Source of the DNA: Loripinus fragilis
Lineage: Eukaryota > Mollusca > Bivalvia > Lucinida > Lucinidae
Direction of reading: 5' to 3'
Assembly (NCBI GenBank): GCA_964019695.1
Contig: OZ026514.1
Span: 9,548,751 to 9,612,750, forward strand
DNA: 64,000 nucleotides
Both the position numbers and the translations under genes were made by a program. The notes beneath the pieces are model-generated. The model was not told the origin of the DNA. It worked only from the letters and a program-made list of their open reading frames with translations, and did no database searches. Shown here piece by piece: positions 4,771 through 49,775 of the stretch (the stretch's first letter is position 1; each line of letters starts with the position of its first letter).

Positions 4771-5062
4771 GTGAAATGTTAAAGTACAAGTGTAAACAAA
4801 ATGATTAGTTTGACCACGGTGAGGGGCGGGGGAGCACTTCAGTAAAACTTTTGATATTTTCTATATGTTGAATATGTGTAGCAAAGACAGAGTTTTTACT
4901 TATATCTTTTAATTGTTGGTTGTCCAATGAGAAAAACACTTTTGTGGAAAATTCGACGGTTGAACCTACTATCTTTTTCATTGGAAAAATTCATTTTCTT
5001 TGAAACTTTTATCCGGCCATTTTATGGGCAGTCCTTCATTAAGACTGTCCGAGGTCCTTTAA
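4764..5062. repeat. Right half of a GGACCTCGGACAGTC-ended MITE
   Basis: Matches the right parts of the elements at 51787-52829 and 61417-62238. It contains the shared blocks GCACTTCAGTAAAAC, TATATGTTGAAT and TTCTTTGAAACTTTT, and ends AGACTGTCCGAGGTCC. The left half with the opposite terminus is absent, so this is a truncated copy abutting the 187-bp array. Confidence 0.85.
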
Positions 5063-6529: not shown

Positions 6530-6597
6530 GCAAACAGTGTGGACCTAGATCAGACTGCTACCATAGCAGCAGTCTGATCCGGGTTCACACTGTTTGT
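6530..6597. repeat. 68-bp hairpin element (GCAAACAGTG family)
   Basis: Near-palindrome beginning GCAAACAGTGTGGACC and ending CACACTGTTTG, with an inner stem AGATCAGACTGCT / AGCAGTCTGATC. Relatives lie at 6874-6923, 23519-23583, 38328-38394 and 38900-38967. A half copy starts at 47737. The shared layout is AAACAGTG, then a CCAGATC-type stem, then CACTGTTT. Confidence 0.8.
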
Positions 6598-6873
6598 CTG
6601 TGTACCGAAATTAGCTAATTTAAAACATGTAGCAGATGACCACAACAGACATCATTTTAGATCTATTTGCTGTATGTGATCGAGTCTTGCAACCATTATA
6701 GATCCAGTTTTAGCGTCTCTGTAGCACAAATTGTTGATCCTTTTCAGAGCAGTTTGATCTTGGTCAAGACTGTTTGCATGTATGCAAAGTAAGTCATTTC
6801 TGTTTCCGCCTTATAGTTTGTTAGTTACCTGAAAATTGGTAAATATCTTAATAAATGATATACTGACATACTT

Positions 6874-6923
6874 TACAGTGCAGACACTGATGAAATGCCA
6901 CTGTTTGGGTCTTCACTGTTTGC
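6874..6923. repeat. Decayed hairpin element (GCAAACAGTG family)
   Basis: ACAGTGCAGACACTGATG at the left faces GGGTCTTCACTGTTTGC at the right, with a shortened centre. The stretch 6924-8205 has no supported gene: AT-rich sequence, a short CTT run at 7387-7407, and a few chance ORFs. Confidence 0.6.
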
Positions 6924-8380
6924 CTAAGTACCTATGTGGTCAATGTTCAAACAGGGCTCATATTGTTCAGGCTTTATTTTGGTTGGATCCATTTTAGGAT
7001 CCATTTTGATAGATAGTAAACCTTTCCCATGTGTGGAACACCTCCATTCAGTATAAATTACCTGAACGTGAGAAGGTAATTATCTTAGCCCAATCCAACT
7101 TTTATAATGAATTAATATGACGCCAATTTAAAATATTATGGGTTTTTTATACTTCTTATATTTAATTATTGTTTTTAGTGATTAAAGGCTTGCAGTCAAT
7201 GGCATCTTTGGTAGAATATAAAATTATAAAATATTTAAAATAAAACTATTGTAATTTGGAATAAATATATATATTAAAACAAGCAAATAATCACATTTGA
7301 AATACAAAACTTGCGAATATAATTTCAACAAGGGAGCTAATTCAAAAACGGCAAGGGAGGGCAATTGCATAAATTTTACCGATATTTTCTTCTTCTTCTT
7401 CTTCTTTGTATTTAATGACACTCCCTCAATTGCTGAGGATTATCTGCCATGCGCATTATTTGCCTCATAATTATTTGTAATGGATGATTAGCAGTATTAG
7501 GGAAGAATTTTTAAATCATTTGTTATGTATTTGAAAAGAGGGAAGATCATCCTCTATAAAATAATAAAAAATATATATATTTGATAGATCTAGTAAAAGA
7601 TTTCTTAACTGGGCATTGTCGATTCGTTTAGGCGCAGACAATGGGGCATTTTCAGTGTCATGCTCTTTTAAAAAAGCTACCATACTTGTTAGGGATCCCT
7701 CATTTATTTGGAGTAATATAATTTAATTTTTGGATAATTAAGGAATTAAAATCTATATTACTGTGTTACAAATAATTAAAGAAATAAACTGTTGTTTTTA
7801 GCATAGTTCAAAGAAATTATTCTAAAATAGTTATAGAAATTATAATGTTTTCATTTTCAATTGACGATTTCTCCCGAATATTAAGGGAGGTATCTCCATG
7901 ACAACTACATTTTAGCCTTTTTACCATAGATAACCTAAAAACACACGGGTTTGAATTTTGAAATAAGAAAACAAAGGCCGTTGCCATATAATAGACCCAG
8001 TTTCATAATAATAACAGGACCATCATGAGAGAAAATTTAACTTCAAATTTCATAATGGAACCCTATGGGAAATTCATCTCAAATGATGATTTTTAATCCA
8101 TCGATAGCATTCTTCTACAAAATCGTTTACCAGTAAAAAGGGTCATTTGACTTATTTTAGGACATAATCAATTGGGAAAAGCAAAAAAGGTTCATTTTTG
8201 TAACATGCGATGTATCACCTTTTGCAGGTTTTGCATGGTTCTTAGCAAGAGCTGTACTTAAATACCTTTCCATATGTATATTCCAAGCTAAAATCCATGT
8301 TTTTCTGTCAACCACATAAATGTAAAAGTCATTTGTCGCCATCTTGAATTCTCCCGGTCTATCTTGATGTTTCGAGCCGG

Positions 8381-8475
8381 CTGATTGGTCAGCATTGACT
8401 AGCTGAACCAATCAGAGGTCTTGACAGTTATTATTGTATAGCTGCACGTTCGCTCGTGCCATAGCAGTATAAATA
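8381..8475 (+). promoter_or_regulatory. LTR core promoter: paired CCAAT boxes and TATA box
   Basis: CTGATTGGTCAG (8381) and GAACCAATCAG (8405-8415) are two CCAAT motifs in opposite orientation, about 60-85 bp upstream of TATAAATA (8468-8475). The same block is in the 3' LTR, with TATAAATA at 19203-19210. Transcription would start about 30 bp downstream in the GCG-rich stretch, defining the U3/R border. This is motif reading only; no start site is shown. Confidence 0.7.
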
Positions 8476-9221
8476 CTCGTGCGCGTTCCTAGCGTCCGCA
8501 CCCCGTCGCCTGACTTCTGTACTGACACGGTTAACAGGATTTGGTAAAAGACAAAGAAAGAGATTTTAATCATGATGAGAGAGGTATACAAACTCGGTTA
8601 TTAGTTATCTAGTTAGCCTAGTATATCATTGATGAAAAGGGCTTATAAAACTATTGTTTTTAAGTCTAGTTCTCTCAGATTTTACCGACTTTTGACTTGC
8701 ACTGCTTTTACCGATTTCTGTAAGCTTGACCGAATTTGATCCCTTGACCGAATTTAAGCAAAGCATTGTTCCCCTTTTATTAACTAGTGCATTTAGCATA
8801 GAATACTGGAGTAAGTCCAGTAAATTACATGCTATAGACATTGTTTACAGAACGAGATAGATCTGGAGAATTCTTGAGGCCCTTTACCGAATTTATGTCT
8901 GCTTAAGCCTTTACCGATTTTATGTCTGCTTAAGGTTGCTTATAAAATTCATGCCCAAGATATTTGAGTGAACTTGTTATCTATGTGTTTTTATACTAGG
9001 AAACCTATGTCATTTTTTTGCAATTTAAATACAAATTAAACCTTGTTAAAGTGCCATAATCTTGTCTCTCCCTTTACCCATTTATTGAAAAGATCCATAA
9101 ATCAGGCGAACCCCCTGATTTTCTTGTAGCGATCAGATTCCTTTGACCTGAGCTCGGCTAGCATAATCCTGACATTGAATACAGCTTTCTTACCAGGTGC
9201 AAAGGGTCAGAACGGTACAAC

Positions 9222-9239
9222 TGGTGCCAGAAGTGCGAG
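9222..9239 (+). promoter_or_regulatory. Primer-binding site (minus-strand DNA priming)
   Basis: TGGTGCCAGAAGTGCGAG begins two bases after the 5' LTR end. The leading TGG pairs with the CCA end of a tRNA, as expected for LTR elements. The rest resembles a leucine-type acceptor stem, but tRNA identity is uncertain. The untranslated leader continues to 9549 with several GATCTAGATC repeats and no ORF. Confidence 0.8.
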
Positions 9240-9549
9240 ATATAATTTTGAATAGAATTTTTGGGTCTGATAAATATTAGTAGATCTAGATTTATAAAAA
9301 ATTGAGATCTAGATCTATTAAAATTCGGTAAAAATATACATATATAAAATAATAGAACAAGGTTAATGATAAAGGCGTATTCACGCTAGTAAATAAGAAT
9401 TTTTATAGAGAATTGGTGAAACGAAATAGAAATTGTTCTGTGTAGATATAGACAGGGTGGCGATTTAAATTTTTTGTGAGATCTATTACTCATGCGCATA
9501 GTGCAGGCTTACTAATTTATTTATTAAGAATTACCTTTTTACAAAGAGA

Positions 9550-10857
9550 ATGGATTCAAGTCATGATTTAAATGTTTCAATGGGGGATAACGAAACTGCG
9601 CAGATTCCTTCCAGAAATAGTAGGGACGATGGTCTAGACCATAGTCTAGACAGACAGTCTAGACTATCTAGCCCTGAAAGAGATATACAAATCCAAATTT
9701 CGTCTTTGGCGACCGACGTAAAGAACACGGTTATGTCTTTGAGCGATACGATGCAAATTCGATTTGAAAGGTTTAATGAAAAGTTGAGCGATATACAAAG
9801 TCAAATAAGCAATTTAGAAAATAGAAATACAAACAACGAAACAGGGGGAACTTCAATTTTCTCATTTCCACCATCAAATACGTTTAGGGGTCAGGGTGAA
9901 TCAGCTATCCTGAGTACAGGGTCGCGCGAAAATAGTAACATAAAAGTGAGACCTCAACTGTATGATGGATTGAGCGATATAGACGAGTATTTAACACAGT
10001 TCAATATTGTTGCCCAAATTAATCAGTGGGGCAGTAATATTAAAGCATTGCATCTTGCAAGTTGTTTAACAGGCAATGCTCGATCTTTGCTTAGTGAATT
10101 AGATCTAGAACACCAGCGAAACTTTTCTTTCTTAGTTTCTGCACTCCAATGTCGTTTTGGTACTGTAAATAGAGCTGAGGTTTATAGGGCGCAGTTAAAG
10201 AATAGGGTGCGACAAAAAGGTGAAACAATTCCTGAATTGGCCCAAAATGTTAGAAAATTAACTAGACAGGCGTACCCAGGTGCAAATTCAAATTTAATAG
10301 ATACGCTGGCGTTGGATCATTTCATAGATTCATTGCTTGACTCAGAAACACGGTTAAGATTACGTGAGTGCAGTCCAAAAACTATTCAGGAAGCTGAAAC
10401 TCTAACAGTAAAATTAGAGGCTCAGAGAATGGCGGATAAACAGAGAAGTAAAAATGTAGGGTCATTAAGTGAGGCCTCTGAGAAAAGTGAGATAGGAAAT
10501 GATATGAAGAAGATTGCAGAGACTGTGAGCGGGTTAGTTGAGAGTGTTGAGAAGTTGCAGAATAGAAATGAAACTGAAAAGTTTCACCCTAGGGATAGGA
10601 GAGAATATAATAACGTAAATGAGGGACAAAACAGGTCGCACAGACCTAACTCAAATTTTAATAATAGAAATAGGCCTAGGGGTAATAACTGGTCTAGAAA
10701 TTGGTCACAGAATGGTCAGAACAATCAGAATTTTTCAGGACCACCTGATAGACAAAACTTTAACAGACGACCAATGGAACAGCAAAATAGCTCGTTCAGG
10801 TCACAACAGCAGGGAAACGAAAACAGGTCAAGTCTGGGGGTCTCAGCTCGACCTTGA
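9550..10857 (+). CDS. gag: Gag polyprotein of the Gypsy element
   Basis: 435 codons from ATG at 9550. Residues 1-60 are polar, and 45-100 form a likely coiled coil (heptad-like SLATDVKNTVMSLSDTM). Residues about 135-300 look like a retrotransposon Gag capsid region (YDGLSDIDEYLTQFN, LTGNARSLLSEL, FGTVNRAEVYRAQL). The last 90 residues are Asn/Arg/Gln-rich (NFNNRNRPRGNNWSRN). No CCHC zinc knuckle is present, unlike many Gypsy nucleocapsids, so RNA binding would rest on the basic Asn/Arg tail. The coding DNA near 9627-9672 repeats TCTAGAC in palindromic order. The stop TGA at 10855 lies beyond the slippery site, so most ribosomes would make Gag alone. The reading frame is intact. Confidence 0.9.
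   Translation: MDSSHDLNVSMGDNETAQIPSRNSRDDGLDHSLDRQSRLSSPERDIQIQISSLATDVKNTVMSLSDTMQIRFERFNEKLSDIQSQISNLENRNTNNETGGTSIFSFPPSNTFRGQGESAILSTGSRENSNIKVRPQLYDGLSDIDEYLTQFNIVAQINQWGSNIKALHLASCLTGNARSLLSELDLEHQRNFSFLVSALQCRFGTVNRAEVYRAQLKNRVRQKGETIPELAQNVRKLTRQAYPGANSNLIDTLALDHFIDSLLDSETRLRLRECSPKTIQEAETLTVKLEAQRMADKQRSKNVGSLSEASEKSEIGNDMKKIAETVSGLVESVEKLQNRNETEKFHPRDRREYNNVNEGQNRSHRPNSNFNNRNRPRGNNWSRNWSQNGQNNQNFSGPPDRQNFNRRPMEQQNSSFRSQQQGNENRSSLGVSARP
10812..10818 (+). promoter_or_regulatory. -1 ribosomal frameshift site GGGAAAC (Gag to Pol)
   Basis: The heptamer G GGA AAC matches the X XXY YYZ rule and sits in the gag phase (codons CAG GGA AAC). The pol frame is the -1 frame; it is open from about 10791 and has no ATG near its start. 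A weak stem is possible downstream (TCAAG near 10827 with CTTGA at 10853). GGGAAAC is an established slippery sequence in some retroviruses. Its function here is inferred. Confidence 0.8.
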
Positions 10858-12635
10858 AGGAGGTAAGGCCCGAAATTGTACAACTGAATAAGACGGGGAA
10901 TGATGATGATGGTTATTTTGTCTCTGCTAATGTTAATGAAAAGCCTGTAACATTATTGTGTGATTCAGGGGCGAATGTTTCAATCCTAAATAGTTCATTG
11001 TTAAATACATGGGGAAATAGTATGACACCTAGTCTTATTCCTGTAAACACTATGCTACTGACTGTAACTGGAGATAGTAAACCTTTTGAGGGTAAGGCTC
11101 TTGTTCAGATTAGATTAGGAAAATGCACGTTTCAGCATGAGTTTTTGTTTGCTGATATTACTCAGGATGGTATTCTTGGTATTGATTTTATGATAAAGAA
11201 CAAGTGTGATTTGATGATTAGTAGAAGTTGTCTTAAGGTGAAAGGAGAAGAGATTCCTTGCCATATGAGTAATGGCATTCAGCCAACATGCTGTAGAGTA
11301 GCTTTGGTAGAAAATGTGAGCATACCCGCTGAGTCCGAGATAATTGTTGCTGGAAAACCTTTAGATAAATTAGACAGGGGTAGATTAGGGATAGTAGAAC
11401 CCTCCTTGAAATTTGTGCAGAACACAGGAATTTTAGTGGCCAAGGTATTGATTGACCCCAAATTAGGAAGCATTCCTTTGCGTTTAGCGAATTTTAGCAA
11501 AGAGCCAATAACGGTTCATAAAGACATGGTGACAGCAGTATTAGAGCCTGTAGATTCAGTAGGAAATGAGAGTGAGAATGTGTCTCGAGTGTGTCAGCTA
11601 AATGAAACTACTGAAACTTCCAATCAGTTACCTGAACATTTAGTACCACTTCTTGAACGTTCGTCCGAAAACTTAGACAAAGCACAGGGGTCTAGGTTGA
11701 AGCAATTTCTTATTAAACACCAGAATATTTTTTCTAAATCATCCAGTGACATTGGCCATACTTCAGTACTTCAACATCATATTGATGTTCAGAATGCAAA
11801 ACCAGTGAAAAAGGTTCCGTATAGGATTCCCCTTGCTAAAAGAAAGGTTGCTGAACAAGAAATTAAGCAAATGGAAACTGACGGTATAATTGAGAAATGT
11901 CCTCAAAGTAGCTGGAATTCACCTGTAGTTATGGTGACCAAGCCTGATAAGTCCATAAGGTTTTGTTGTGATTTTCGTGGATTGAACGAAGTCACTGTGA
12001 AAGATTGCCAAGCACTTCCACGTATAGACGACAGTCTTGATGCTCTGTCAGGATCTAAATGGTGGAGTTGTCTCGATATGAAATCCGGTTACTGGCAGGT
12101 AGATATTGCTGAACAAGATAGGCATCTTACAGCTTTCTCTATACCAGGCGGTGAACAGTGGCAATGGCGGAAGCTTGCTTTTGGTTTGTGTAACGCGCCA
12201 AGTACGTTCACCCGATTAATGCAACTGGTATTCTCGGGTCTGATATGGAAGATAGTTATACTGTATCTGGATGACATTATCTGTCATTCAAAGACATTTG
12301 AAGAGCAGTTCACAAACTTAGAATTAGTGTTTGGAAGGTTGCGGCAAGCAAACTTAAAACTGAACCCTAAAAAGTGCTGTCTGTTTCAGAGAGAAGTGAC
12401 ATTTCTCGGACATACCATTAGTGAGCATGGGGTAGGCACACTTCCAGATAAGATAGATAAGGTTAAAAATTGGCCCACTCCACAAACAGCTAAAGAAGCA
12501 CGAAGCTTCATTTCTTTAGCAAGTTATTATAGGTCATATGTCTATCAATTTGCCACCATTGCTAAACCTATTCACCAATTAGCTGAGAAAGAGAGAGATT
12601 TTGAGTGGAATGAAGAGTGTGAAAAGTCCTTTTAA
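10818..12635 (+). CDS. pol: Pol, N-terminal part: aspartic protease and reverse transcriptase (ends at premature TAA)
   Basis: Entered by -1 frameshift; no native ATG is needed. The protease has the LLCDSGANVSIL active-site motif (D-S-G near 10959). It is followed by RT with RFCCDFRGLNEVT, DMKSGYWQV, AFGLCNAPSTFTRLM and the catalytic Y-L-D-D at about 12264-12275, then the connection region. The frame ends at TAA (12633-12635). The next open frame continues in the same phase directly after it, within the sequence where Gypsy RT normally runs into RNase H. The stop is therefore an internal nonsense codon, not the natural end. It would remove RNase H and integrase unless read through. The rest of the frame shows no frameshift. 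Confidence 0.9.
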   Translation, partial: RKQVKSGGLSSTLKEVRPEIVQLNKTGNDDDGYFVSANVNEKPVTLLCDSGANVSILNSSLLNTWGNSMTPSLIPVNTMLLTVTGDSKPFEGKALVQIRLGKCTFQHEFLFADITQDGILGIDFMIKNKCDLMISRSCLKVKGEEIPCHMSNGIQPTCCRVALVENVSIPAESEIIVAGKPLDKLDRGRLGIVEPSLKFVQNTGILVAKVLIDPKLGSIPLRLANFSKEPITVHKDMVTAVLEPVDSVGNESENVSRVCQLNETTETSNQLPEHLVPLLERSSENLDKAQGSRLKQFLIKHQNIFSKSSSDIGHTSVLQHHIDVQNAKPVKKVPYRIPLAKRKVAEQEIKQMETDGIIEKCPQSSWNSPVVMVTKPDKSIRFCCDFRGLNEVTVKDCQALPRIDDSLDALSGSKWWSCLDMKSGYWQVDIAEQDRHLTAFSIPGGEQWQWRKLAFGLCNAPSTFTRLMQLVFSGLIWKIVILYLDDIICHSKTFEEQFTNLELVFGRLRQANLKLNPKKCCLFQREVTFLGHTISEHGVGTLPDKIDKVKNWPTPQTAKEARSFISLASYYRSYVYQFATIAKPIHQLAEKERDFEWNEECEKSF

Positions 12636-14975
12636 GTGATAAAAGAAGCATTATGTAGTGCTCCTATTTTAGCTTTTCCCACTGAAACTGATCCGTTTAT
12701 TATAGACTGTGATGCGTCTAATGTTGGTCAGGGAGCAGTTTTGTCTCAAATTCAGAACGGTGAAGAGAAAGTGATATGCTATTTCAGCAGATGTTTTTCT
12801 CGGGCTGAGAGAAACTATTGTGTTACCCGTAGAGAGCTTTTGGCTGTCGTGAATGCCATCAAACACTTTCATCATTATATCTACGGAAATAGGTTCACAA
12901 TAAGAACTGATCATGGGAGTCTGAGGTGGTTATTAAACTTTAAGATATTAGATGGACAATTGGCTAGAATGTTAACTTTCTTGTCCGCATATGATTTCTC
13001 TATTCAGCATAGAGCTGGTAGATTGCACAGTAACTGTGATGCTCTATCCAGGAGGCCATGTGTAGAAGCAGACTGTAAATACTGTGAGAAAGTTGAAAAC
13101 AGATATGAAAGTGAGAATGAGGAAGGGAGATGTTCTGAAACTATAACAGTACACAGAATTAAGCAGATATATAGTAGTATTTCTAGTCATAGTAGAACTA
13201 GGTTGGTGCAGTTAATGCAAATGCTATTATGTTTATTTGTTACTGTAGTTTCCAATGTCAGTACTCTTTTAAGAAGTGTGACTGAGCGGATGGAGAAAGG
13301 TGTACAGTGCATGAAAGTGTACCTTGTGGTAAAAAGACAGTGTAAAGTAAAGAAGGTACCCCCTGATAAGAAAAGTAGAGTGTGTGAAATCACAGATAAA
13401 TTTAAGAGTGATGAACCTGACTTTAAAAAGCATAGAGAAATTAGTGTAGTAAGGGGTGAAATAGGTAGAAAGTCATGCAATGCTTGTAGTAACCTAGATG
13501 AGAAGGGGAAAGTAGAGAATTTTGAACCTAGACCTGGTACGTCCAGTGACGATAACCCCGATAGTCCTGATAATGACAACCGGTTAGGTAATAGTCCTAT
13601 TTTGCAAGCAGAGGAGTACATTGAAATTGATTGGGAAGAAGAGTTTGATAGAGGAAAAGTGAGAGAGTATCAATTGTCTGACCCTGTACTAAAGAAAGTA
13701 CATGAGTGGAAAGAAAGGGACAAAAAGCCAGAGTGGTGTGAAATAGCAGATCAGGGGGCTGAAACAAAATATTTTTGGCATCGATTGGAGCTGTTGGAAA
13801 TACGAGATGGTGTGTTATTTCGAAAATGGGTAAATCTGAATGGGAAAGAAAACAAGTACCTTCTGATTGTACCTAAATTTTTGCGTAGATTTATATTATC
13901 TCAGTTACATGATGGGGTAACAGGTGCTCACCTAGGTATTGCTAAAACATTGTTTAAGATAAGAGAGCGGTTCTACTGGTATGGTTTGAAGAGTGATGTA
14001 GAATCATGGTGTGCTAGGTGTGAGATATGTGGTTCCAGAAAGGGTGCATTTAAATCTGGCAAAGCTCCTATGAAACAATACAATGTTGGGTTGCCCATGG
14101 AGAGAATAGCAATTGATTTTATGGGACCGTTTAATAGGACAATTCCACAGAATGACAATGCTCCAAAGAGATATTTGATGGTAATTGGAGATTATTTTAC
14201 AAAATGGACAGAGGCTATACCCCTTGAAAATCTTGAAGCAAAAACGGTAGCGAGAGCTCTTATAGATAATTTTATTAGTAGGTTTGGTGTCCCTCTTTTC
14301 ATTCATACAGATCAGGGGGCTTCATTTGAAAGCAAATTGTTTCAAGAAACTTGTCAGATCCTTGGCATAAAGAAAACAAGGACCACAAAGGCTAGACCAC
14401 AATCTGATGGCATGATTGAGAGGGCAAATAGAACTATTATTAACATGCTATCTGCATTTGTTGCTGACCATCAGAGAGATTGGGATCAGTATGTACCTTT
14501 GGTGATGATGGCTTATAGATCATCAGTGCATGATTCTATAAATACTAGTGCAAGTATGATGATGCTTGGTAGAGAGATACAACTCCCTATTGATCTCATA
14601 TTCGGTAGTCCTGATAGTGAGAGGAATGAATATGTGTATGGAAGTTTGTATGCAAAAGAATTGCAAGAAAGGCTAATTGAAGTGCATGAGTTTGCACGAA
14701 AGCGAATGAAGATAGCGAGTGATGCAATGAAGAGAAAGTATGACTTAAAGTCAAATTTGAGAGAGTTCAATATAGATGACTCTGTTTGGGTATATGATCC
14801 TATACGAAAAGTAGGTGTGAATCCTAAATTACAAAGACCGTGGAAGGGCCCTTTTAAGGTGGTTGAAAAATTAAGCGATATTTTGTACATGGTTAAACAG
14901 TCGCCAAGACACAAACCACGAATTGTACATCATGATAAGCTTAGAATGTATAAAGGAAGGAATCTGACAGTTTAG
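12636..14975 (+). CDS. pol: Pol, C-terminal part: RNase H and integrase (downstream of the in-frame stop)
   Basis: 779 codons in the same frame as the preceding part. RNase H occupies residues about 1-145 (IIDCDASNVGQGAV, RRELLAVV, RTDHGSLRWL). A long linker of roughly 180 residues follows, with a hydrophobic stretch (LMQMLLCLFVTVV) and a charged region. Integrase has an H2C2 zinc-binding module (HDGVTGAH near residue 425, CARCEIC near 458) and a D,D35E catalytic triad (D494 in AIDFMGP, D559 in HTDQGAS, E595 in MIERANR). A C-terminal GPF module (WKGPFKVVEKL, near 737) follows, then HHDKLRMYKG. No chromodomain was recognised. All catalytic residues are intact, so the TAA at 12633 is the only lesion I see in Pol. 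ORF3 begins 52 bases after the TAG. Confidence 0.9.
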   Translation: MIKEALCSAPILAFPTETDPFIIDCDASNVGQGAVLSQIQNGEEKVICYFSRCFSRAERNYCVTRRELLAVVNAIKHFHHYIYGNRFTIRTDHGSLRWLLNFKILDGQLARMLTFLSAYDFSIQHRAGRLHSNCDALSRRPCVEADCKYCEKVENRYESENEEGRCSETITVHRIKQIYSSISSHSRTRLVQLMQMLLCLFVTVVSNVSTLLRSVTERMEKGVQCMKVYLVVKRQCKVKKVPPDKKSRVCEITDKFKSDEPDFKKHREISVVRGEIGRKSCNACSNLDEKGKVENFEPRPGTSSDDNPDSPDNDNRLGNSPILQAEEYIEIDWEEEFDRGKVREYQLSDPVLKKVHEWKERDKKPEWCEIADQGAETKYFWHRLELLEIRDGVLFRKWVNLNGKENKYLLIVPKFLRRFILSQLHDGVTGAHLGIAKTLFKIRERFYWYGLKSDVESWCARCEICGSRKGAFKSGKAPMKQYNVGLPMERIAIDFMGPFNRTIPQNDNAPKRYLMVIGDYFTKWTEAIPLENLEAKTVARALIDNFISRFGVPLFIHTDQGASFESKLFQETCQILGIKKTRTTKARPQSDGMIERANRTIINMLSAFVADHQRDWDQYVPLVMMAYRSSVHDSINTSASMMMLGREIQLPIDLIFGSPDSERNEYVYGSLYAKELQERLIEVHEFARKRMKIASDAMKRKYDLKSNLREFNIDDSVWVYDPIRKVGVNPKLQRPWKGPFKVVEKLSDILYMVKQSPRHKPRIVHHDKLRMYKGRNLTV

Positions 14976-15008
14976 GTGAATACGTTAATATTTGAACTAA
15001 AACTAGCC

Positions 15009-15021
15009 TCATATATTTCAG
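15009..15021 (+). promoter_or_regulatory. Candidate splice acceptor in front of ORF3
   Basis: TCATATATTTCAG ends at 15021, 6 bases before the ORF3 ATG, and fits a 3' splice site. A subgenomic spliced RNA, as used for env in retroviruses, would place ORF3 first. A strong donor-like GAG|GTAAGG occurs at 10860-10868, just after the gag stop; other donors in the leader are weaker. Inference only. Confidence 0.5.
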
Positions 15022-15027
15022 GCTACA

Positions 15028-17127
15028 ATGTATTTCTGTGGGATCTGTGATGATCTAGAATTTACAACAAAGGGTAGATGTCTAGGGCACTTGCGGGAGC
15101 AACATGCTGGGCTGCAATACAAGTGCCTGAAGTGCAGGAAATTGTTCCGGAGGAACGACAACCCCCATATTTGTGGAGCCAGGAGAGAAGATTACATCCC
15201 ATTCGTAATGTCTACAGGGGAAAAGGGAGAAGCTGCTTTAAGAGTTTTAAATCAATTTATGCAAAATGCTGAGGAAAATTTAGTCATTGTTAGAAATATC
15301 ATGCTAAATGAACATGAATTTGAGGAAAAATTTGAAATGAGTGCCGGCAGAGGCAGAGGTAGAGGTAGAGGGAGACCTTTTAATAGGATCAATGTAGTGG
15401 ATTACACTGCAAGAAAGAGGACACAACCTGCTTTGCCGTATAACGGTAAATGTCGGAGGTTGTCCTCTTCTTCAGTGTCGTCTAGGTCTTCATCTGCCTC
15501 ATCCAGCTCGTCATCTACATCCTCTTCATCAAGTTCCTCAACATCCTCAGCATCTTCCTCATCTTCCACTGCATCTGTCCAGACTAAGGCTTCGGCAAAG
15601 TTCAGTGAAGATGAGGAGAAGCTGATGGAGATCGGCATGGCCACCGCTAGCTTATATAGCTATGAAGAGATGACGGGCTGCGATGAGCCCTTTTTAGAAG
15701 AAATAATTGATGAGAGGAGAGTGATTGAGAATAGTAAGATAGAGATAGAAAATAAGGAGAAGGAGAGGAGAGTGCAAGAGAAAAGACAGAAAGAGCAGAA
15801 TGAACAAAAAGACCGAAGGGAGAGAGAGGAAAGAGAAAGAACTGAGAAGGAAGAAAAAGAAAGAAGAATGAGAGAGCAAAGAGAGAAAGAACAAAAAACA
15901 GAAAAAGACAGAAAGGAGAAAGAGGAAAAAGACAGAAAAGAGAGAGAAGAGAATGAAAGAAGAGTGAAAGAGCAAAGAGAGAAAGAACAAAAAGCAGAAA
16001 AAGACAGAAAGGAGAAAGAGGAAAAGGAAAGAAAAGAGAGAGAAGAGAATGAAAGAAGAGTAAAAGAGCAAAGAGAGAAGGAACAGGAAGAGCAAAAGAA
16101 CAAGGAGAAAGAAGAAAGGGAAAGGAAGGAGAAAGAGAAGAAAGAAAAGGAAATGGAAAGAAAGCTGAGGGAGGAGGAAGAGAGAATGAAGGTAAAAGAA
16201 AGAAAAGAAAGAGAGGAAATGGAAAGAAAGGAAAAAGAGAAACAAGAGAAGGCAGAAAAAGAAAAGCTAGAGAAAGAAGAGAAGAAAGAAAAGGACAGAA
16301 AACAGAAAGAGGAAAGAGAAAGGAATGAGAGAGAACAGAGAGAAAAAGAAGAAACAGAGAGAAAGGAGAAAGAGAAGAAAGAAAAGGAGAATGAGGAATT
16401 AAAGAAGAAAAAGGAAAAAGTAGAGAAAGAATGGAAAGAGAAAGAGAGGAAAGAAAGACAAGAAAATGAGTTAAAGGAGAAAAAGGAAAAGGCAGAAAAG
16501 GAAAAGAAAGAAAAAGAAGAGAAAGAGAAAAAGGAAAAAGAGAGGAAAGAGCAAGTGAGAAAAGAAAAGTCAGATAAGGAAAGAAAGGAAAAGGATCAGA
16601 AAGAGAAAGAGGATAAAAGAGAAAAAGAGAAGGAAAAGAAAGAGGAACAAGAGAAACAGATTAAAGAAAGTGCAAAAGAGAAGATAAGTGAAGTAGTGGA
16701 AAAGGGACAGGAAGTGAAGAAGCCAAGTAAAGTGATTAATAAAACTGTGAGAAAGAATATCAAACTCCACTCACCAACATTTCTTAAACTGCAAGCAATT
16801 AACACAGATCAATCTCAAAAGATCATTTTAGATGTGGGGGGTACAAAATTCCATACATGCATTAGGACATTAAACACGTACACCAGCATACTTTCAAAAA
16901 TGCTAGCACCCAACTCACCACTGAAACCCATGGACGGAATATATTTTTTTGACAGGGATAGCACATTATTTAGACACATATTGAATTTCATGAGAACTGG
17001 GGAAGTACCTTGTCTAAACATTAAACAATTACTTAATTTGAAAGGGGAAGCAATTTATTTTGAGTGTGAGAGGTTATTGATTGAAATTGAGAAGAGATTG
17101 AAAGGAGAAATTGGTCTGGAAGAATGA
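15028..17127 (+). CDS. ORF3: zinc-finger / charged-helix / KCTD-type BTB (T1) protein carried by the retrotransposon
   Basis: 699 codons, intact. Residues 1-50 hold a C2H2-like finger (C4, C7, H21, H26) and a C2HC-like one (C33, C36, H47, C49). Around residue 108 is an RG-rich stretch (GRGRGRGRGRPF). Residues about 150-185 are mostly serine. Residues about 232-565 are almost entirely Lys, Glu and Arg, a predicted long single helix or coiled coil. Residues about 597-690 match the potassium-channel-tetramerisation BTB family: ILDVGGTKF, then YFFDRDSTLFRHILNFMRTGEVP. Proteins with this domain oligomerise and often act as cullin-3 adaptors; no ion-channel segment is present. The position is that of env in retroviruses, but no signal peptide or membrane anchor is seen, so it is not an envelope. 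Roles could include nuclear or chromatin tethering, RNA packaging or ubiquitin-system recruitment; none is shown. Host capture of the BTB domain is the likely origin. Confidence 0.88.
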   Translation: MYFCGICDDLEFTTKGRCLGHLREQHAGLQYKCLKCRKLFRRNDNPHICGARREDYIPFVMSTGEKGEAALRVLNQFMQNAEENLVIVRNIMLNEHEFEEKFEMSAGRGRGRGRGRPFNRINVVDYTARKRTQPALPYNGKCRRLSSSSVSSRSSSASSSSSSTSSSSSSSTSSASSSSSTASVQTKASAKFSEDEEKLMEIGMATASLYSYEEMTGCDEPFLEEIIDERRVIENSKIEIENKEKERRVQEKRQKEQNEQKDRREREERERTEKEEKERRMREQREKEQKTEKDRKEKEEKDRKEREENERRVKEQREKEQKAEKDRKEKEEKERKEREENERRVKEQREKEQEEQKNKEKEERERKEKEKKEKEMERKLREEEERMKVKERKEREEMERKEKEKQEKAEKEKLEKEEKKEKDRKQKEERERNEREQREKEETERKEKEKKEKENEELKKKKEKVEKEWKEKERKERQENELKEKKEKAEKEKKEKEEKEKKEKERKEQVRKEKSDKERKEKDQKEKEDKREKEKEKKEEQEKQIKESAKEKISEVVEKGQEVKKPSKVINKTVRKNIKLHSPTFLKLQAINTDQSQKIILDVGGTKFHTCIRTLNTYTSILSKMLAPNSPLKPMDGIYFFDRDSTLFRHILNFMRTGEVPCLNIKQLLNLKGEAIYFECERLLIEIEKRLKGEIGLEE
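15720..16720 (+). repeat. 1-kb purine-rich tract within ORF3
   Basis: Nearly all bases on the + strand are A or G, encoding the Lys/Glu/Arg helix through repeats of units such as AAAGAGAGAGAAGAG. An internal duplicated block reads RRVKEQREKEQ at two places (about 15958 and 16057). The minus-strand ORFs here (15660-16103 and 15694-16245) are only the complement. Confidence 0.9.
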
Positions 17128-17138
17128 GTGAGTGATTT

Positions 17139-17606
17139 AACATAGTGTTTGTATGGAGGATATGTTAATCTTCTGTACACGCTATAGTTAGATATAAAAA
17201 CAGATAGTAAAAGAGAGAGAAAGTGAGAGAAATAGGAGAGAAAGAAATATGAATGAATAGTATTATACAGTTTAAATGGATTTAACATAGTGCTTGTATG
17301 GAGGATATGTTAATCTTCTGTACACACTAGTGTTAGTTACGAAAGCAGATAGTAAAAGAGAGAGGAATGGAAAGAAATATGTGAGAAAGTGATATAAAGA
17401 AATAGTCTTATAGTTATTTTAATTTAGCTCAACATAGTGCTAAGTGGAGGATATGTTAATCTTCTACATATACTATTGTTGATGATGTTGACCAGATAAA
17501 GAAATAAAAAATGTTTGAAAGAAAAATAATTAAAAGTATACTTTTCAAATAAAACTAACACAGTGTCATGCGGAGGACATGTTAGTCTTCTACATCTCAC
17601 TATGTT
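17139..17606 (+). ncRNA. Array of four structured hairpins in the element's 3' noncoding region
   Basis: Units at 17139-17189, 17284-17334, 17430-17481 and 17557-17606. Each has an outer stem (AACATAGTG with a 3' partner such as CACTATGTT), an inner stem and the invariant 6-base loop ATGTTA. In units 1 and 2 the inner stem is GTATGGAGGAT with ATCTTCTGTAC, 11 pairs including G-U. In unit 3 both arms lose two bases together (GTGGAGGAT with ATCTTCTAC). In unit 4 the loop-closing pair changes from T-A to C-G on both sides (GAC with GTC). Outer stems stay paired despite shifts of a bulged base. Changes that preserve pairing point to a selected RNA structure, for example for packaging, export or binding of an element protein. 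Intervening spacers are AG- or AT-rich. Confidence 0.8.
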
Positions 17607-17689
17607 GGTTTTGGTTAATGCCGAAAAGATATTAAATTTTATTATAAAAATAATCAAAGGTCTCCCTTTACTTGTGAAATGCATAAAAT

Positions 17690-17860
17690 ATATCAATCCC
17701 AGTGAATATAGTGAAAGTGTTATTCCAACATCCTTTTTGTTGGTATTAAAATTATATATCTATATATATATAATTGGAAATATATCAATCCAAGTGAATA
17801 TAGTGAATGTGTTATTCCAACATCTTTTTGTTGGTATTAAAATTATATAGCTCTATATAT
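17690..17860 (+). repeat. 92-bp duplication with CCAACA/TGTTGG hairpins
   Basis: Two copies carry GTGAATATAGTGAA, then a hairpin CCAACA (17725 and 17817) with TGTTGG (17738 and 17829) around a T-rich loop, then TATTAAAATTATAT. They lie just after the four-hairpin array inside the same 3' noncoding region. Confidence 0.75.
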
Positions 17861-18744
17861 AATTATGAAAACAGATTTAGTTCTTCAGTGAACAAATATA
17901 GAGACTGAAAAATGATATGAATCAGTCTTCATATGAAAATTGGTCTTAGACTGCAGATGTCGGTCTTTAAAACAGAGAACTGTAGATGGAAGACACTCGA
18001 CCCAACCAGATGTGGATACTAACATTTGCTGATTGAAAGTGAACAACACACACATTAAAGTGAACTTTATTAGTTTTATTAACATAAACAATTTATAGTA
18101 AATTACAAGTATGCTATGTAGGTATATCAGGGAAACCAAATAGAGATTATTACAATAGGTATGACTCAAATTGTCAACTAATTTCATGGTTTGTTGATGT
18201 AGTCTTTATTAACATGAGTTAATGTAATTACTATTCAGTTCGTACATTAAATTGTATTGTCATAGTACAATGTGATGAACAAACTGAATATCTTAAAATA
18301 TATAAAGCATACTTGTAATCAAGTTCATGAAGTAACATAAAAAAAAATAATATTAATTAAAAAAAAAATACTTTGACAGCATATATCCTTATACAATAAC
18401 ACCTTTATCTAGAGAGATAACCTGTGAAGCTTGGTATCAATCTTCAGAGATGATCTCTCTACAAAAATGTGTTCTGATCGAGTCAACTATAGAGGCTAAT
18501 GTGTTAATTGAGGATAAATTGTTTAATGTAGAGGTCATGAATTAAGAATGACCTATCTAGTGTGATTTAAAGAAAGGTGTGTCTTGAATTAAGGATGTAT
18601 GTGCATGATTTAATAAAATTTCTATTGACAGCCAACCCGTGAAAAATTGTCTATACAAATTTCAGGGGCTGACATTCAATGGAAAGGTCAAGATTTCAGA
18701 ATGACAGATTTTAAAATAATTTTAAATTGGGGACCAATTTTTAC
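17861..18744 (+). other. Remaining 3' noncoding region of the Gypsy element
   Basis: AT-rich sequence between the hairpins and the polypurine tract. The only ORFs are short and antisense (for example 17885-18187) with no domain. A small self-complementary AGAGATGATCTCTCT lies near 18446. No env remnant is readable. Confidence 0.6.
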
Positions 18745-18758
18745 GGAGGTGGGGGTAG
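18745..18758 (+). promoter_or_regulatory. Polypurine tract (plus-strand DNA priming)
   Basis: GGAGGTGGGGGTAG directly abuts the TGTAAT start of the 3' LTR, the expected position for the RNase H-resistant primer. Confidence 0.85.
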
Positions 18759-19956
18759 TGTAATACATTGTGCACTACCCTAGACGTCGCCTAGTAACCC
18801 CATCATTAATTCTTTATCGCTACCTTTGGCTTAACTAAGCGATAGTTGCCTTCGCAAAATATGTAAACTTTATCGTCTGTCATTCGTGTTATCGTTGACC
18901 TATTCTTGGGCCTATTTGAAGAATATACGCAGACATTGAAGATAAATGACGAAGAGACAGTTAATACAAGTTGATTGTTTGATGGTAAGATGTTAAATAC
19001 CTTTCCATATGTATATTCCAAGCTAAAATCCATGTTTTTCTGTCAACCACATAAATGTAAAAGTCATTTGTCGCCATCTTGAATTCTCCCGGTCTATCTT
19101 GATGTTTCGAGCCGGCTGATTGGTCAGCATTGACTAGCTGAACCAATCAGAGGTCTTGACAGTTATTATTGTATAGCTGCACGTTCGCTCGTGCCATAGC
19201 AGTATAAATACTCGTGCGCGTTCCTAGCGTCCGCACCCCGTCGCCTGACTTCTGTACTGACACGGTTAACAGGATTTGGTAAAAGACAAAGAAAGAGATT
19301 TTAATCATGATGAGAGAGGTATACAAACTCGGTTATTAGTTATCTAGTTAGCCTAGTATATCATTGATGAAAAGGGCTTATAAAACTATTGTTTTTAAGT
19401 CTAGTTCTCTCAGATTTTACCGACTTTTGACTTGCACTGCTTTTACCGATTTCTGTAAGCTTGACCGAATTTGATCCCTTGACCGAATTTAAGCAAAGCA
19501 TTGTTCCCCTTTTATTAACTAGTGCATTTAGCATAGAATACTGGAGTAAGTCCAGTAAATTACATGCTATAGACATTGTTTACAGAACGAGATAGATCTG
19601 GAGAATTCTTGAGGCCCTTTACCGAATTTATGTCTGCTTAAGCCTTTACCGATTTTATGTCTGCTTAAGGTTGCTTATAAAATTCATGCCCAAGATATTT
19701 GAGTGAACTTGTTATCTATGTGTTTTTATACTAGGAAACCTATGTCATTTTTTTTTGCAATTTAAATACAAATTAAACCTTGTTAAAGTGCCATAATCTT
19801 GTCTCTCCCTTTACCCATTTATTGAAAAGATCCATAAATCAGGCGAACCCCCTGATTTTCTTGTAGCGATCAGATTCCTTTGACCTGAGCTCGGCTAGCA
19901 TAATCCTGACATTGAATACAGCTTTCTTACCAGGTGCAAAGGGTCTGAACGGTACA
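18759..19956 (+). repeat. 3' LTR (uninterrupted)
   Basis: 1198 bp, TGTAATACATTG to ACGGTACA, followed by the target duplication ATAT (19957-19960). It preserves the pre-insertion sequence GATGTTAAATACC at the point where the 5' LTR carries the TTAA element. It contains a second promoter block (TATAAATA at 19203). Small ORFs in it (19361-19576 and others) are shared with the 5' LTR and judged noncoding. Confidence 0.96.
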
Positions 19957-19960
19957 ATAT

Positions 19961-20690: not shown

Positions 20691-22089
20691 ATATTATCAA
20701 ATTATCTCCAAGGATTTTATTGAGCGCACAGGCTTTTATCTACAGATGGACAGACAGGCATTAGACAGCCCGTCCATTCTACGAGGCCCCCGATGGACGG
20801 GGACCCGCATGTTTAAAGGAGTTAGTGGAATGGGTAAGATGCTGACAGACGTCACAAGGGTCTTCCATTATCAGGTAGGAGGTTGTTTTGGTGGTAACAT
20901 TTGCTTTCGATGTGATTCAAAGTTAACTGGCGCTTAGGTTTATTGCAAAGATATGGTAAAAGACAAAGCAAAAGCAAGTACTTTATAAAAGTGACTGTAC
21001 AAAGAAATTCTTGAAAATCACAGTTGTCAGTACGACAGCATACCAAGTTACTGTACAAAAATCTATTTATACAGTGTCTTGTAAAATGAAGAAATTTTCA
21101 TGATTTATCTTCAATGCTGATCCACTTCGAAAATGACATTCCACCAACAGATGGTTCTATAATGTGCTCCTTATGAAATTAATCCTTTTTATTTTGGATA
21201 GTGCGATCAATACACGTTTTGCCTATGATGCAATCATGCATATTTTGCATGCAAAAATTGAGACTTGTGCATTTCACTACGAACGCTTTATAACTGACAC
21301 TTGCCTTCTTGAGGTGTTCCAAGTATACTGATGCATCAAACGGACCAAAACAGTCTGGCTTTTTAACACGGGTGGGCATCAGCGGAACTACCGCGAAATC
21401 GCGTCAACGTAATTTTGTTCCTTCGTCACATCCGGGACCTTTCGCGGTAGTGGCAACGTCATGGAAAAGCCAAACAAAGGTAGGTACTCTCGCTTGTTTT
21501 GTTCTTTTGTAAAAGAATGGGCCAACTATGTAAAAATCTGGCAATGCTATTCCATGTAGATATGATTTACCTTGGTAAACAGGCCAAACGTGATGTTGAA
21601 AAAAGCTTTGCTTTGAGATGCGGACCGTAACCAAATCGAACACAGAACGGTATTTCTTCAGTTTATGTCAAAACGAAGAAAGTATGCAGATGTTTTGCCA
21701 CTTTTAGCTCAGAACAAGCGCATTTCACACATGACATGTTCATAACAGCCCTTATTCTTCCTTCGGACGTAAAAAAATCGAACCGATCATGCTCTATGAA
21801 GGAACGGTGCCAAAGTTTTCAGGCGCAGTAGCGCCTGCGCCATCGCGGTAGTTATAACGTCACGCTCTAGTTCCTTGGAGTATACCATGTCAGTACACGC
21901 AGTGCATGCAAGCGCGGAAAGAACTGTGTGTAATATCTACTGAAACACCCCAAACCACCACCAATCCATCTCAAACGCTCCTCCCAGTGTACAAACTAGC
22001 ACACTTACCCCTGCTCACCTCCAAGACCCCCACAACATTTAGCTCAGCCTTTTGCGCAGATGCGCTACAGATGTAAGCATATGGGTCCG

Positions 22090-22338
22090 GAATTACAATG
22101 CCTCCTTAGAGTTAAGGAAAACTAAAGTTAAGTATTGATTTTTCAGGATTCGAAAAATAACGTTTAAAACTAATTAAAATCACAATATTTTTATTTTTTC
22201 TGAAGATCACAATGATATCTTTGACCACAGATATCACATCGATCCAGGCAATTTATTTAGCTTTTAATATAGCATGTTGAAATATCAATACTTAACTTAA
22301 GTCTTGCTTAACTTTAAGGAGGCATTGTAATTCTGGGC
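22090..22338. mobile_element. 249-bp MITE at the centre of the inner palindrome
   Basis: GAATTACAATGCCTCCTTA at the left is matched by its reverse complement at the right, with arms of about 50 bp including TTAAGTATTGAT. It splits the loop between arms 21510-22085 and 22755-23330. Confidence 0.85.
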
Positions 22339-22419
22339 CCAGGTCTCGTCCACTGGCCCAAATATACTTGAAGTGTATATTATTTATCTGTGGTGTACCG
22401 AAAGGAGCAAAAAGATTAA

Positions 22420-22530
22420 TTATAGTATATACCATATTTAATTATGGTATATACCATAATAAAATATGGCATATACCATAATTAAATGTAGCACATACCT
22501 TAATTAAATATAGTATATACCATGACTAAA
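22420..22530. repeat. Short tandem repeat, about 21-bp unit
   Basis: Five or six imperfect copies of a unit containing AATATGGTATATACCATAAT, itself palindromic. It lies between related TATACTTGAAGTGTATAT segments. Confidence 0.8.
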
Positions 22531-23518
22531 TATACTTGACGTGTATATCATTTATCTACATGTATATATGTGTTAGTACATATAATATTTGGTCTTGTCT
22601 TTATCTACATCCATATTTTGCAGTGTGTGCGAGCAGCCGAAAAGGCCTGGTGAAACTTTAAAAATGCGCAAGCTAATCTGAGTCGAGGCACATGCGATAA
22701 GTGACAAAATCTCATGAACTGACACATATACGAGTATACATGTAGATAAATGATATACACTTCAAGTACTTACATCTGTACCGCATCTGCGCAAAATGCT
22801 GAGCTAAAGGTTATGGGGGTCATTGAGGTGAGGATTTAGAGTGGGGCAGGGGTAAGTGTGCTAGTTTGTACACGGGGATCAGCGTTTGAGATGGATTGGT
22901 GGTGGTTTGGTGTGTTTCAGTAGATACTACAATATTACACACATTTCTCTCCGAGCCTGCATGCACTGCATGTACTAACATGGTATACTCGAAGGAACTA
23001 GAGCGTGACGTTACAACTACGGCGAAGGCCCTACTGCGCCTGAAATCTTTGGCATAATTCCTTATAGAACATGATCGGTTCGATTTTTTTACATGCGAAG
23101 GGGGGATAAAAGCTGTTATGTACATGCCGTGTGTAAAATGCGCTTGTTCTGAGCTAAAACTGGCAAAACATTTGCATAGTTTCTTCGTTTTGACATAAAA
23201 CAGAAGAAATCCCGTTCTGGGTTCGATTTGATTACGGTTCTCATCTACAAACAAAACTTTTTTCAACACCACGTTTGGCCTGTTTAGCAAGGTAATTCAT
23301 ATCAAGATGGAATAGCATTGCCAGATTTTTACATAGTTAGCTCATTCTTTTACAAAAATCAAAACAACCAACATTTTTAAGGTCGGCCCTACATACATTT
23401 TGTAAAATTATGTCAGGATGGTCCATTGTATATATTTAGGGCATCAGTATTTATGCTAAAATCCCCCGTTCCCACAAAAATGTATTTCTTTCTCTGAAGA
23501 TTAATTTTGTTTTTAGAA

Positions 23519-23583
23519 GCAAACAGTGCAGACCCAGATGAAATTCTGCATAGTGCAGCATTTTATCTGGGTCTTCACTGTTT
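23519..23583. repeat. Hairpin element (GCAAACAGTG family)
   Basis: GCAAACAGTGCAGACCCAG faces CTGGGTCTTCACTGTTT around CATAGTG. It directly precedes the SINE target site. Confidence 0.8.
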
Positions 23584-23596
23584 ACCAAACAAGCAG

Positions 23597-23795
23597 TAGG
23601 GAGCGCAGTTGTCAGTGGTAGATTGCTTGACTCGAGACCGAGGGGTCGCGGGCTCGAGCCTCACCGGCGTCACTGTTTTGTAGTCCTTGAACAAGATACA
23701 TTTATCCTCGTTTAGTACTGGTTCATCCCAGGAAGACCCGCCCCTGTTTAACTGAAAGATTGTTGATGGGACGTAAAGAATCAAATCAAACAAAG
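23597..23795 (+). mobile_element. tRNA-headed SINE (family S), with 11-bp target duplication
   Basis: A-box-like GTCAGTGGTAGATTGC, B-box-like GGCTCGAGCC, then the family middle (CCAGGAAGACCCG) and an AATCAAACAAAG tail. It is flanked by CAAACAAGCAG at 23586-23596 and 23796-23806. The Pol III boxes are from a tRNA-derived head, not a functional tRNA gene. The ORF 23575-23802 is incidental. Confidence 0.85.
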
Positions 23796-24390
23796 CAAAC
23801 AAGCAGCTTAGGGTAACTCCCTCAGCAGGATGTGGAAATACAATGCCCGACGTGTCCGTCCTTATCCCATTTTATTTAGGACAAGTAAGACTTAGCAATT
23901 TATTTTCACTAATTTAAGTTCAAACAACTCTATACTTTGATTAATTACTACAAACTCACATGTAGTATGGAAATCATGTAGATCCTGATCAGGTGGTTTT
24001 TGAAGAAGCCAGCAGATTTGGATCGTCACTGTTTACAAAAGAGTTTATATCTGTTTTTACACATTGTTTCAGCAAAATTGGTGGTGGTTTGGTGTGTATC
24101 AGTAGATACTACAGTATTCAAAGTTTATTCAAATCACTCAGTACATGTTAACATGTAATATGAGGTAATAAATAAATATGCATATATTGATGCCCTTCAA
24201 TGCCCACTCAAGGTATTGCGGAAACTGAGTGTACACTCAGCCTACAAAGTCAGGAGCATGTGGCTTCTAATATACACAGTGGTCTGGTTCATTTTTAATG
24301 AACCAGACATTGTGGTATTGGGGCATCTCCGGGCTGATTGGGGAACACAGGCCGTATATATTCTAATATTTAACAACTATTATTTGTAAT

Positions 24391-24442
24391 CACACACACA
24401 CACACATACATACACACAGATACACGCGCGCGCGTGCGCGCC
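24391..24442. repeat. CA/CG microsatellite
   Basis: A run of CA dinucleotides interrupted by CATA, then CGCGCGCGTGCGCGC. The neighbouring 23807-24390 has one short block near 24078 shared with 22900 (GGTGGTGGTTTGGTGTG) and no gene. Confidence 0.9.
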
Positions 24443-24721
24443 CACCAAGCGGATGACATCATGAACAGAGAATTACATGAGATTTGCGTCTCCCCATGCT
24501 GCATTGATCATACATTTCAGGGCAAATGCTCAAAGAAAACGGGCAAGTATGTACAGAAGAGTATACGAATATATCAAGTTTTATTTTTTTCAGGATCTCG
24601 TACACCCGAATCGATATAAACTCATATACTGGTATTTAGTTTGTGTCCCATAAAATATGATGATTGCAGCACAAGGATATGCATGGAGTTAAATAAGTTT
24701 CTGAGAATCTTAAAGAGTATA

Positions 24722-49772: not shown

Positions 49773-49775
49773 ACA

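Follow-up and report, generated by a model that had tools for sequence, protein, structure and literature searches.

Third genes in the place of the envelope gene (env) are already known from long terminal repeat (LTR) retrotransposons, and the third open reading frames (ORF3s) of bdelloid rotifer elements such as Vesta and Juno, which are captured non-envelope genes in that place, are the nearest precedent for the gene reported here (PMC5408684). In bdelloids, ORF3 is reported to be typically a unit of its own, which is expressed through a spliced message; bdelloid ORF3s encode enzymes (GDSL esterase, DEDDy exonuclease), are family-specific and, in their intragenomic evolution, do not depart significantly from neutrality. 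Here we describe ORF3, a gene of 699 amino acids (aa) in a Ty3/Gypsy element of the bivalve Loripinus fragilis. The element lies in a stretch of 64,000 nucleotides (contig OZ026514.1, positions 9,548,751 to 9,612,750; hereafter the window), whose coordinates are used throughout, with all genes on the plus strand. ORF3 is almost certainly a third gene inherited with pol in one large Ty3/Gypsy clade, and encodes a pair of zinc fingers, a variable linker of low complexity and, at the C-terminus, a captured BTB domain of the KCTD type. Unlike the bdelloid ORF3s, the clam gene combines zinc fingers with a BTB, is nearly fixed in its clade and is constrained.

Plant Retand elements with TRP28 ORFs likewise have a conserved extra protein between pol and the 3' LTR, which is thought to bind DNA, but these ORFs are antisense, occur only in plants and contain a different domain (PMC11963269). 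The sORF2 of the Drosophila MDG1 group is also a constrained accessory protein of an env-less LTR element; it is located upstream of gag and is a short membrane fusogen (PMC11952523), whereas ORF3 has no membrane segment. Host-like domains, including MATH/TRAF, are found in the giant Gypsy-like Burro elements of planarians, but there they are part of a giant polyprotein or of an upstream ORF (PMC6431247). A KCTD BTB also meets mobile-element sequence in KCTD1 isoform b, which carries a Crypton-derived domain (PMC3212892), but in the reverse direction: a transposon domain entered a host gene, whereas in ORF3 a host domain appears to have entered a retroelement. The captured third genes of LTR elements that we found described are enzymes, membrane proteins or antisense ORFs, from which a KCTD-type BTB with zinc fingers differs. 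Among the open-licence papers listed in literature searches, mostly the top-ranked results, none showed an LTR retrotransposon with a BTB or KCTD gene, and the term 'BTB' occurs 0 times in PMC12440569, PMC8905726, PMC10294476, PMC5408684, PMC6338049 and PMC6431247. The retention by selection of a BTB with fingers across many families suggests that env-less retroelements make use of host adaptor folds.

Domain organization of the ORF3 protein

ORF3 (15028-17127) has no internal stop and lies between gag-pol and the 3' LTR, in the env position to which an earlier note, made from the sequence of this DNA alone, had assigned it. The BTB/T1 domain named in the same note was confirmed by the Pfam model BTB_2 (PF02214), which matches aa 599-685 (16822-17082; 1.1e-17, 64.6 bits against a cut-off of 21.4), and is also supported by profile comparison and by a tree. 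BTB_2 was present in six of six ORF3 family members tested, in three of four database relatives and in the additional locus L035. Pfam scans of seven ORF3s placed the BTB at the C-terminus in every case and detected no GDSL or DEDDy domain. When the ORF3 protein of the window was compared alone, its top sequence match in PDB was KCTD1; with a profile of 10 ORF3 relatives, BACURD3 (first), SHKBP1, KCTD15 and KCTD5 outranked Kv T1 domains.

ORF3 shares this KCTD-type BTB_2 with animal KCTD proteins but carries it at the C-terminus, behind fingers and a long linker, and inside a mobile element. In the usual KCTD protein the BTB is close to the N-terminus and a family-specific domain forms the C-terminal part, a layout from which all seven scanned ORF3s depart. 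ZBTB factors have a classical BTB N-terminal to their C2H2 fingers; in ORF3 the BTB is of the BTB_2 type and C-terminal, and the fingers are N-terminal.

A tree was calculated from 12 ORF3 BTBs and 20 BTB_2 exons of the host, the labels of the latter being judged from sequence, with one checked. All 12 ORF3 BTBs grouped with six KCTD-type host domains at 100/100 support, apart from 14 Kv-type or other domains, in line with the KCTD-type assignment of the earlier note. Of the six host domains, one, located on C16, is part of a 552-aa open frame without ORF3 fingers, and another has BACURD3, BACURD1 and KCTD7 as its nearest PDB matches. The ORF3 BTBs formed one side of a branch in 0% of 200 bootstrap trees, and that of P0003, a database relative from another clam, fell among the host domains. 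In a reduced set without P0003, a single ORF3 group received 4%, and a single origin was not rejected by the approximately unbiased test (p-AU 0.27). The BTB was probably captured from a KCTD-type host gene, one or several times, with a single origin neither supported nor rejected.

The conserved N-terminus (15028-15240; alignment and model) comprises a C2H2-like finger (C-x2-C-x13-H-x4-H), a second cysteine finger (C-x2-C-x12-C) and a GxxGxxA motif. The zinc ligands C4, C7, H21, H26, C33, C36 and C49 are invariant across nine aligned ORF3 copies, and the GxxGxxA motif and the BTB core are common to all nine proteins. The two Cys/His motifs recognized previously are therefore conserved, although no C2H2 model exceeded its Pfam cut-off in the ORF3 scans. 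A profile of the finger part matched C2H2 proteins in PDB (designed protein Aart, 7.6e-8; ZBTB7A, 1.7e-6). The predicted model of the N-terminus had a predicted local distance difference test (pLDDT) score of 84; a Foldseek search with it returned nothing at 0.001 or better, and a VIA search returned weak matches alone, with C2H2 fingers first and with Kaiso and CTCF among the weak structural matches. The AlphaFold 2 (AF2) model of the BTB by itself was poor.

Between these ends, neither the linker nor its two conspicuous parts are conserved in the nine proteins. An arginine-glycine (RG) patch (15340-15378) occurs only in F1, the family of the window copy, and the repetitive stretch rich in lysine, glutamate and arginine (15748-16700) is not conserved among the aligned families. 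The RG patch and the charged helix of about 330 residues listed in the earlier note are thus present in the window's family but absent from the other aligned families. A shared function residing in them was rejected on the basis of the nine aligned rows; judging from the alignment, they are F1-specific and unlikely carriers of such a function. That the purine-rich charged stretch is open is little evidence in itself because purine-only codons cannot form stops, and the evidence for a function of ORF3 comes from its conserved ends and from the selection tests.

The location between pol and the 3' LTR, together with probable expression from a spliced message, would also suit a protein that stands in functionally for an envelope and mediates cell-to-cell spread. 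However, a hydropathy scan detected a segment of transmembrane strength in none of 17 ORF3 open frames (maximum Kyte-Doolittle window 1.54). An identity as envelope was rejected on this result, and even a purely functional substitute is highly improbable.

Occurrence with pol and purifying selection

The genome (1.99 Gb, 685 contigs) was searched for ORF3 with the F1 protein, the protein of a second family (F4) and PF02214 alone as queries, and with the integrase of the window copy. Each search scored the best candidates only (64 of 17675 for ORF3, 74 of 878 in a later ORF3 search, 96 of 4571 for integrase and 150 of 165 for BTB_2), and the numbers of integrase loci (95) and BTB_2 places (139) given below are counts among these, not of the whole genome.

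Besides the ORF3 of the window, F1 comprises two further full-length open copies (95% and 96% identical) and several decayed ones, and more distant relatives have open frames of up to 778 aa. Among 20 stretches of 10 kb that were fetched, ORF3 parts were found in 19, with pol upstream in 18 of these (tblastn); the exception, L026, has an ORF3 part without pol found upstream, and the match in L025 is to the coil only. At least five diverged families have ORF3 downstream of pol in this genome: F1 (window, L009, L010), F2 (L011-L015, L020), F3 (L016), F4 (L018, L019, L021, L024) and F5 (L022, L023, L017). Additional kinds of ORF3 are represented by 417-aa ORFs, L034 and L035. LTR pairs were identified for a second F1 copy (1203 bp, 99.9% identical), for F3 (about 1.4 kb, 96.5%) and for F4, whose LTRs are identical and at least 1299 bp long; the evidence for LTRs in F2 is a single match of 79 bp where the fetched pieces end.

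The integrase query yielded 97 matches, which merged to 95 loci and were split at 46% identity, a value set after the list had been inspected. In the close clade (at least 46%), ORF3 was matched on the same strand in the 6 kb downstream of 54 of 61 loci, and BTB_2, searched over 8 kb, added three more at 3.4 to 4.8 kb, which brings the total to 57 of 61. The loci without either match within 8 kb are C16:23045315 (with a BTB 12.7 kb further on), C18:16032125, C4:99688120 and C6:55028441. Downstream of the 34 loci of the distant clade (below 46%) there was no ORF3 in the first 6 kb and no BTB_2 in the first 8 kb, and at none of the 95 loci was ORF3 found within 6 kb upstream of the integrase. 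At six further loci, the sequence following the integrase was read for about 4.4 kb: ORF3 was present in L034 and L035 and absent from L033 in the close clade, and no similarity to ORF3 was found in L037 and L038 of the distant clade.

The sixth of these loci, L036 of the distant clade (integrase 44% identical), contains a different third ORF (558 aa, 1315-2988 of that locus) with a C2H2 finger, a proline-rich repeat and no BTB, which also sits behind a splice-acceptor-like site. From this locus, the finger part of the third ORF may predate the BTB.

A single-copy accident or a host gene was rejected by the further copies, the pol upstream and the census; ORF3 occurs in many copies behind pol, as the earlier note's reading implied, and two outcomes that the note had named as refuting it, confinement to one copy and failure of the BTB model, did not occur. 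A one-off transduction of a host gene without a role, as in acute transforming retroviruses, would explain why the BTB is of host type, but is already contradicted by the census, with ORF3 or BTB_2 at nearly all close-clade loci. Purifying selection, relatives in other clam species and the absence of conflict between integrase and ORF3 trees where they are resolved likewise argue against it, and we consider it vanishingly improbable.

ORF3 is under purifying selection. The ratio of non-synonymous to synonymous changes per site (dN/dS; Nei-Gojobori, small counts) was 0.14, 0.11 and 0.17 for the whole gene in F1, and did not exceed 0.065 over the first 130 codons or 0.027 over the last 115. Whole-gene values in other families were 0.10-0.17 in F2 (six pairs), 0.12 in F5 (one pair) and 0.17-0.48 in F4 (six pairs), and locally higher values were obtained in one F2 pair (0.36, first 130 codons), in F5 (0.46, middle part) and in one F4 pair (0.57, middle part). 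In three overlapping F1 pairs, all indels in ORF3 were divisible by three (3/3, 3/3 and 4/4; together 10/10), compared with 2/8, 1/7 and 2/9 (5/24) in the adjacent non-coding DNA of the same pairs. The selection across copies that the earlier note had singled out as informative is thus evident both in substitutions and in indels.

The midpoint-rooted integrase tree had the topology (F1,((F3,F4),(F2,F5))). The ORF3 trees match it where they are resolved, separating F1 from the rest and joining F2 with F5 (83/86, both parts together); the grouping of F3 with F4 is resolved in the integrase tree but not in the ORF3 trees.

Beyond this genome, a nine-row ORF3 profile matched four proteins among the 7980 candidates scored. 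P0001 and P0002 are unnamed ENA entries, P0003 is annotated as 'trichohyalin-like isoform X2' of Ruditapes philippinarum and P0004 as 'scaffold attachment factor B2-like' of Mercenaria mercenaria. P0002 and P0003 begin inside the first finger and therefore lack its first cysteines; an alignment including the whole of P0001 and P0004 was too gappy and was not used. By sequence similarity, the public clam gene models P0003 and P0004 seem to represent the same retroelement gene. With the BTB and N-terminal parts as single sequences, searches of the protein collection returned nothing at 0.001, and three scans of viral contigs returned no relative. Among the 139 BTB_2 places listed in the L. fragilis genome, 71 overlap ORF3 and three more lie behind integrase loci (74 in total), the other 65 being placed elsewhere. 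Given these 74 mobile places and the unrelated names of the public gene models, counts of BTB/KCTD expansions in such genomes may partly count retrotransposons.

Expression and possible functions

A splice-acceptor-like site (CATATATTTCAG, 15010-15021, phase 0) lies immediately 5' of the conserved part of ORF3. The same arrangement, a T-rich stretch ending in AG directly before the conserved part, was found in F1-F5, L034 and L035, with the AG ending at a codon boundary each time. In a simple weight score, the F1 acceptor ranks 99th of the 3893 AGs in the window and is outscored by two other AGs in 14400-15700; no splice donor was found with confidence with simple donor and acceptor weights. 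In-frame ATGs are lacking ahead of the fingers in F2, F4 and F5, and the distance from pol to ORF3 varies between 52 bases in F1 and about 1 kb in F2. Because a phase-0 AG is present in seven lineages, an ATG is lacking in three families and the spacing is variable, ORF3 is probably expressed from a spliced mRNA. Ahead of the first ATG, the codons of F2, F4 and F5 showed less non-synonymous than synonymous change per site in 7/7 pairs, which partly share members and mostly rest on one to three synonymous changes; constraint on codons that no ATG precedes suggests that this stretch, too, is translated from a spliced mRNA.

In P0004 from Mercenaria, an alignment to aa 243-302 of the F1 Gag (58% identity) runs up to an ADKQR-type motif and is followed by one to the ORF3 fingers from aa 2 (41%, 94 columns). 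This join lends indirect support to the suggestion of the earlier note that ORF3 may take the place of the missing zinc knuckle of Gag. At that place in Gag, a phase-0 GT is present in F1-F4, all four families that were read. Both observations support a fusion of Gag with ORF3, in which splicing would generate two forms of Gag: one would keep the knuckle-free basic tail, and in the other, with the join at the phase-0 GT after the ADKQR-type motif, the capsid would continue into the ORF3 fingers and the KCTD ring. A host-derived BTB oligomer would then be a structural part of the particle and replace the classical zinc-knuckle nucleocapsid. Several points weigh against such a fusion: the GTs match a splice donor weakly and belong in any case to a conserved valine codon, and P0004, an unverified gene model that may be wrong, leaves out some of the capsid region and has no BTB. 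We regard the fusion as doubtful.

The 435-aa Gag of the window copy (9550-10857) has a C-terminus rich in arginine, asparagine and glutamine, and, as the earlier note had stated, no zinc knuckle; none of the CCHC type was seen in the Gag of F1, F2 and F4, whose C-termini were read (the F3 piece ends before the C-terminus). KCTD BTBs are reported to form tetramers or pentamers (PMC4431850). By analogy, the BTB would bring ORF3 proteins together in a ring of four or five and so create a multivalent scaffold of zinc fingers, which would bind element RNA, the LTR or host chromatin and would act with the knuckle-less Gag in packaging, trafficking or targeting. As KCTD BTBs oligomerise, the finger profile matches C2H2 proteins and Gag lacks a CCHC knuckle in F1, F2 and F4, we tentatively propose that ORF3 is an oligomeric nucleic-acid-binding partner of Gag, a function whose probability we place a little below one half. 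The best explanation as a whole, which joins the identity of ORF3, its spliced expression and the scaffold function, is about as probable as not.

An architecture with separate substrate-binding and BTB ends would also suit a viral-style adaptor, in which the BTB recruits cullin-3 (Cul3) and the fingers hold a host restriction factor for ubiquitination and degradation. Poxvirus BTB/kelch proteins are reported to interact with cullin-3 ligases, and the best PDB matches of the ORF3 profile include the Cul3-linked BACURD3, SHKBP1, KCTD5 and KCTD17. The nearest single-sequence match, however, is KCTD1, whose clade is reported as Cul3 non-binders (PMC4431850). A proline in the alpha2-beta3 loop may explain the failure to bind (PMC10856315), and the region of the window protein that matches this loop by eye (APNSPLKPMDG) is proline-rich. 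Global identity separates binders from non-binders poorly (PMC10856315). A role as Cul3 adaptor is conceivable but rather unlikely.

Another conceivable role is that of a transcription regulator of the element, whose fingers would bind LTR or host DNA and whose BTB ring would recruit a co-factor, by analogy with viral regulators of the Tat/Tax type or with KCTD1/15 as repressors. Such a role is consistent with the match of the finger profile to C2H2 DNA-binding fingers (ZBTB7A and others), with the weak structural matches to Kaiso and CTCF, and with the repression of AP-2alpha by KCTD1 (PMC3212892). It is nevertheless unlikely, given that ORF3 has two fingers only, the second of which is of unusual form. 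The grouping of the ORF3 BTB with host KCTD domains and the description of KCTD hetero-oligomers (PMC10531988) would also fit a protein that hetero-oligomerises with host KCTD proteins and poisons them by dominant interference; this is quite improbable, as it leaves the conserved zinc fingers unexplained and the ORF3 BTBs are strongly diverged from those of the host.

Structure of the element and other features of the window

The element extends from 3188 to 19956 and is flanked by identical ATAT target-site duplications (3184-3187 and 19957-19960, read directly). Its LTR ends (TG...CA), a target duplication in the range of 4-6 bp and the order protease, reverse transcriptase, RNase H and integrase (Pfam) are those of Ty3/Gypsy elements. 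The 3' LTR (18759-19956, 1198 bp, TG...CA; blastn and direct reading) is preceded by a polypurine tract-like sequence (GGAGGTGGGGGTAG, 18745-18758, read directly). The 5' LTR is in two parts: the first (3188-3425) matches the start of the 3' LTR, and the second (8258-9219) is 99.7% identical to it by blastn, its first four bases being a duplicated TTAA. The matches themselves extend over 3185-3429 (repeat analysis) and 8258-9220 (blastn). As the missing first part of the 5' LTR was found at 3185-3429, the 4.8 kb insertion between the two parts (3426-8257; TTAA on both flanks, short inverted ends GTACAGCTCTT) sits inside the LTR. We take the insertion to be piggyBac-like on account of its TTAA target and inverted ends, no transposase having been searched for or recognised. 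Within the insertion, a 187-bp unit is repeated in tandem about five times (3825-4765).

The primer binding site (TGGTGCCAGAAG, 9222-9239) was read from the sequence; the same place is occupied by TGGTGTCAGAAGTGGGAT in F2 and F3 and by TGGTGTCAGAGAAGTGGGAT in F4. The overlap of gag and pol (10791-10857) contains the heptamer GGGAAAC (10812-10818) in the correct phase, which presumably serves in -1 frameshifting. The first open part of pol (10854-12635) encodes an aspartic protease and the reverse transcriptase and ends in an in-frame stop; the second (12636-14975) encodes RNase H, an H2C2 integrase domain, rve and a p58 C-terminal domain (Pfam). Between the two LTRs there are two differences, a substitution and a 2-nt indel. 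The intact ORF described in the earlier note is confirmed for ORF3, but the window copy as a whole is not intact because of the single in-frame stop in pol at 12633-12635. In copy L010, the pol ORF is open over 408-4358 of that locus. The non-coding DNA between ORF3 and the 3' LTR includes a 145-bp tandem repeat (17134-17465).

Elsewhere in the window, a long inverted repeat with arms of 303 nt, which are 98% complementary and nearly 5 kb apart, is located at 21362-26844, and about 18 tandem copies of a 50-bp unit occupy 34410-35328. The ORFs at 48459-54559 resemble, by eye, a non-LTR retrotransposon, with a CCHC-knuckle protein followed by endonuclease- and reverse transcriptase-like parts and an RNase H-like piece.

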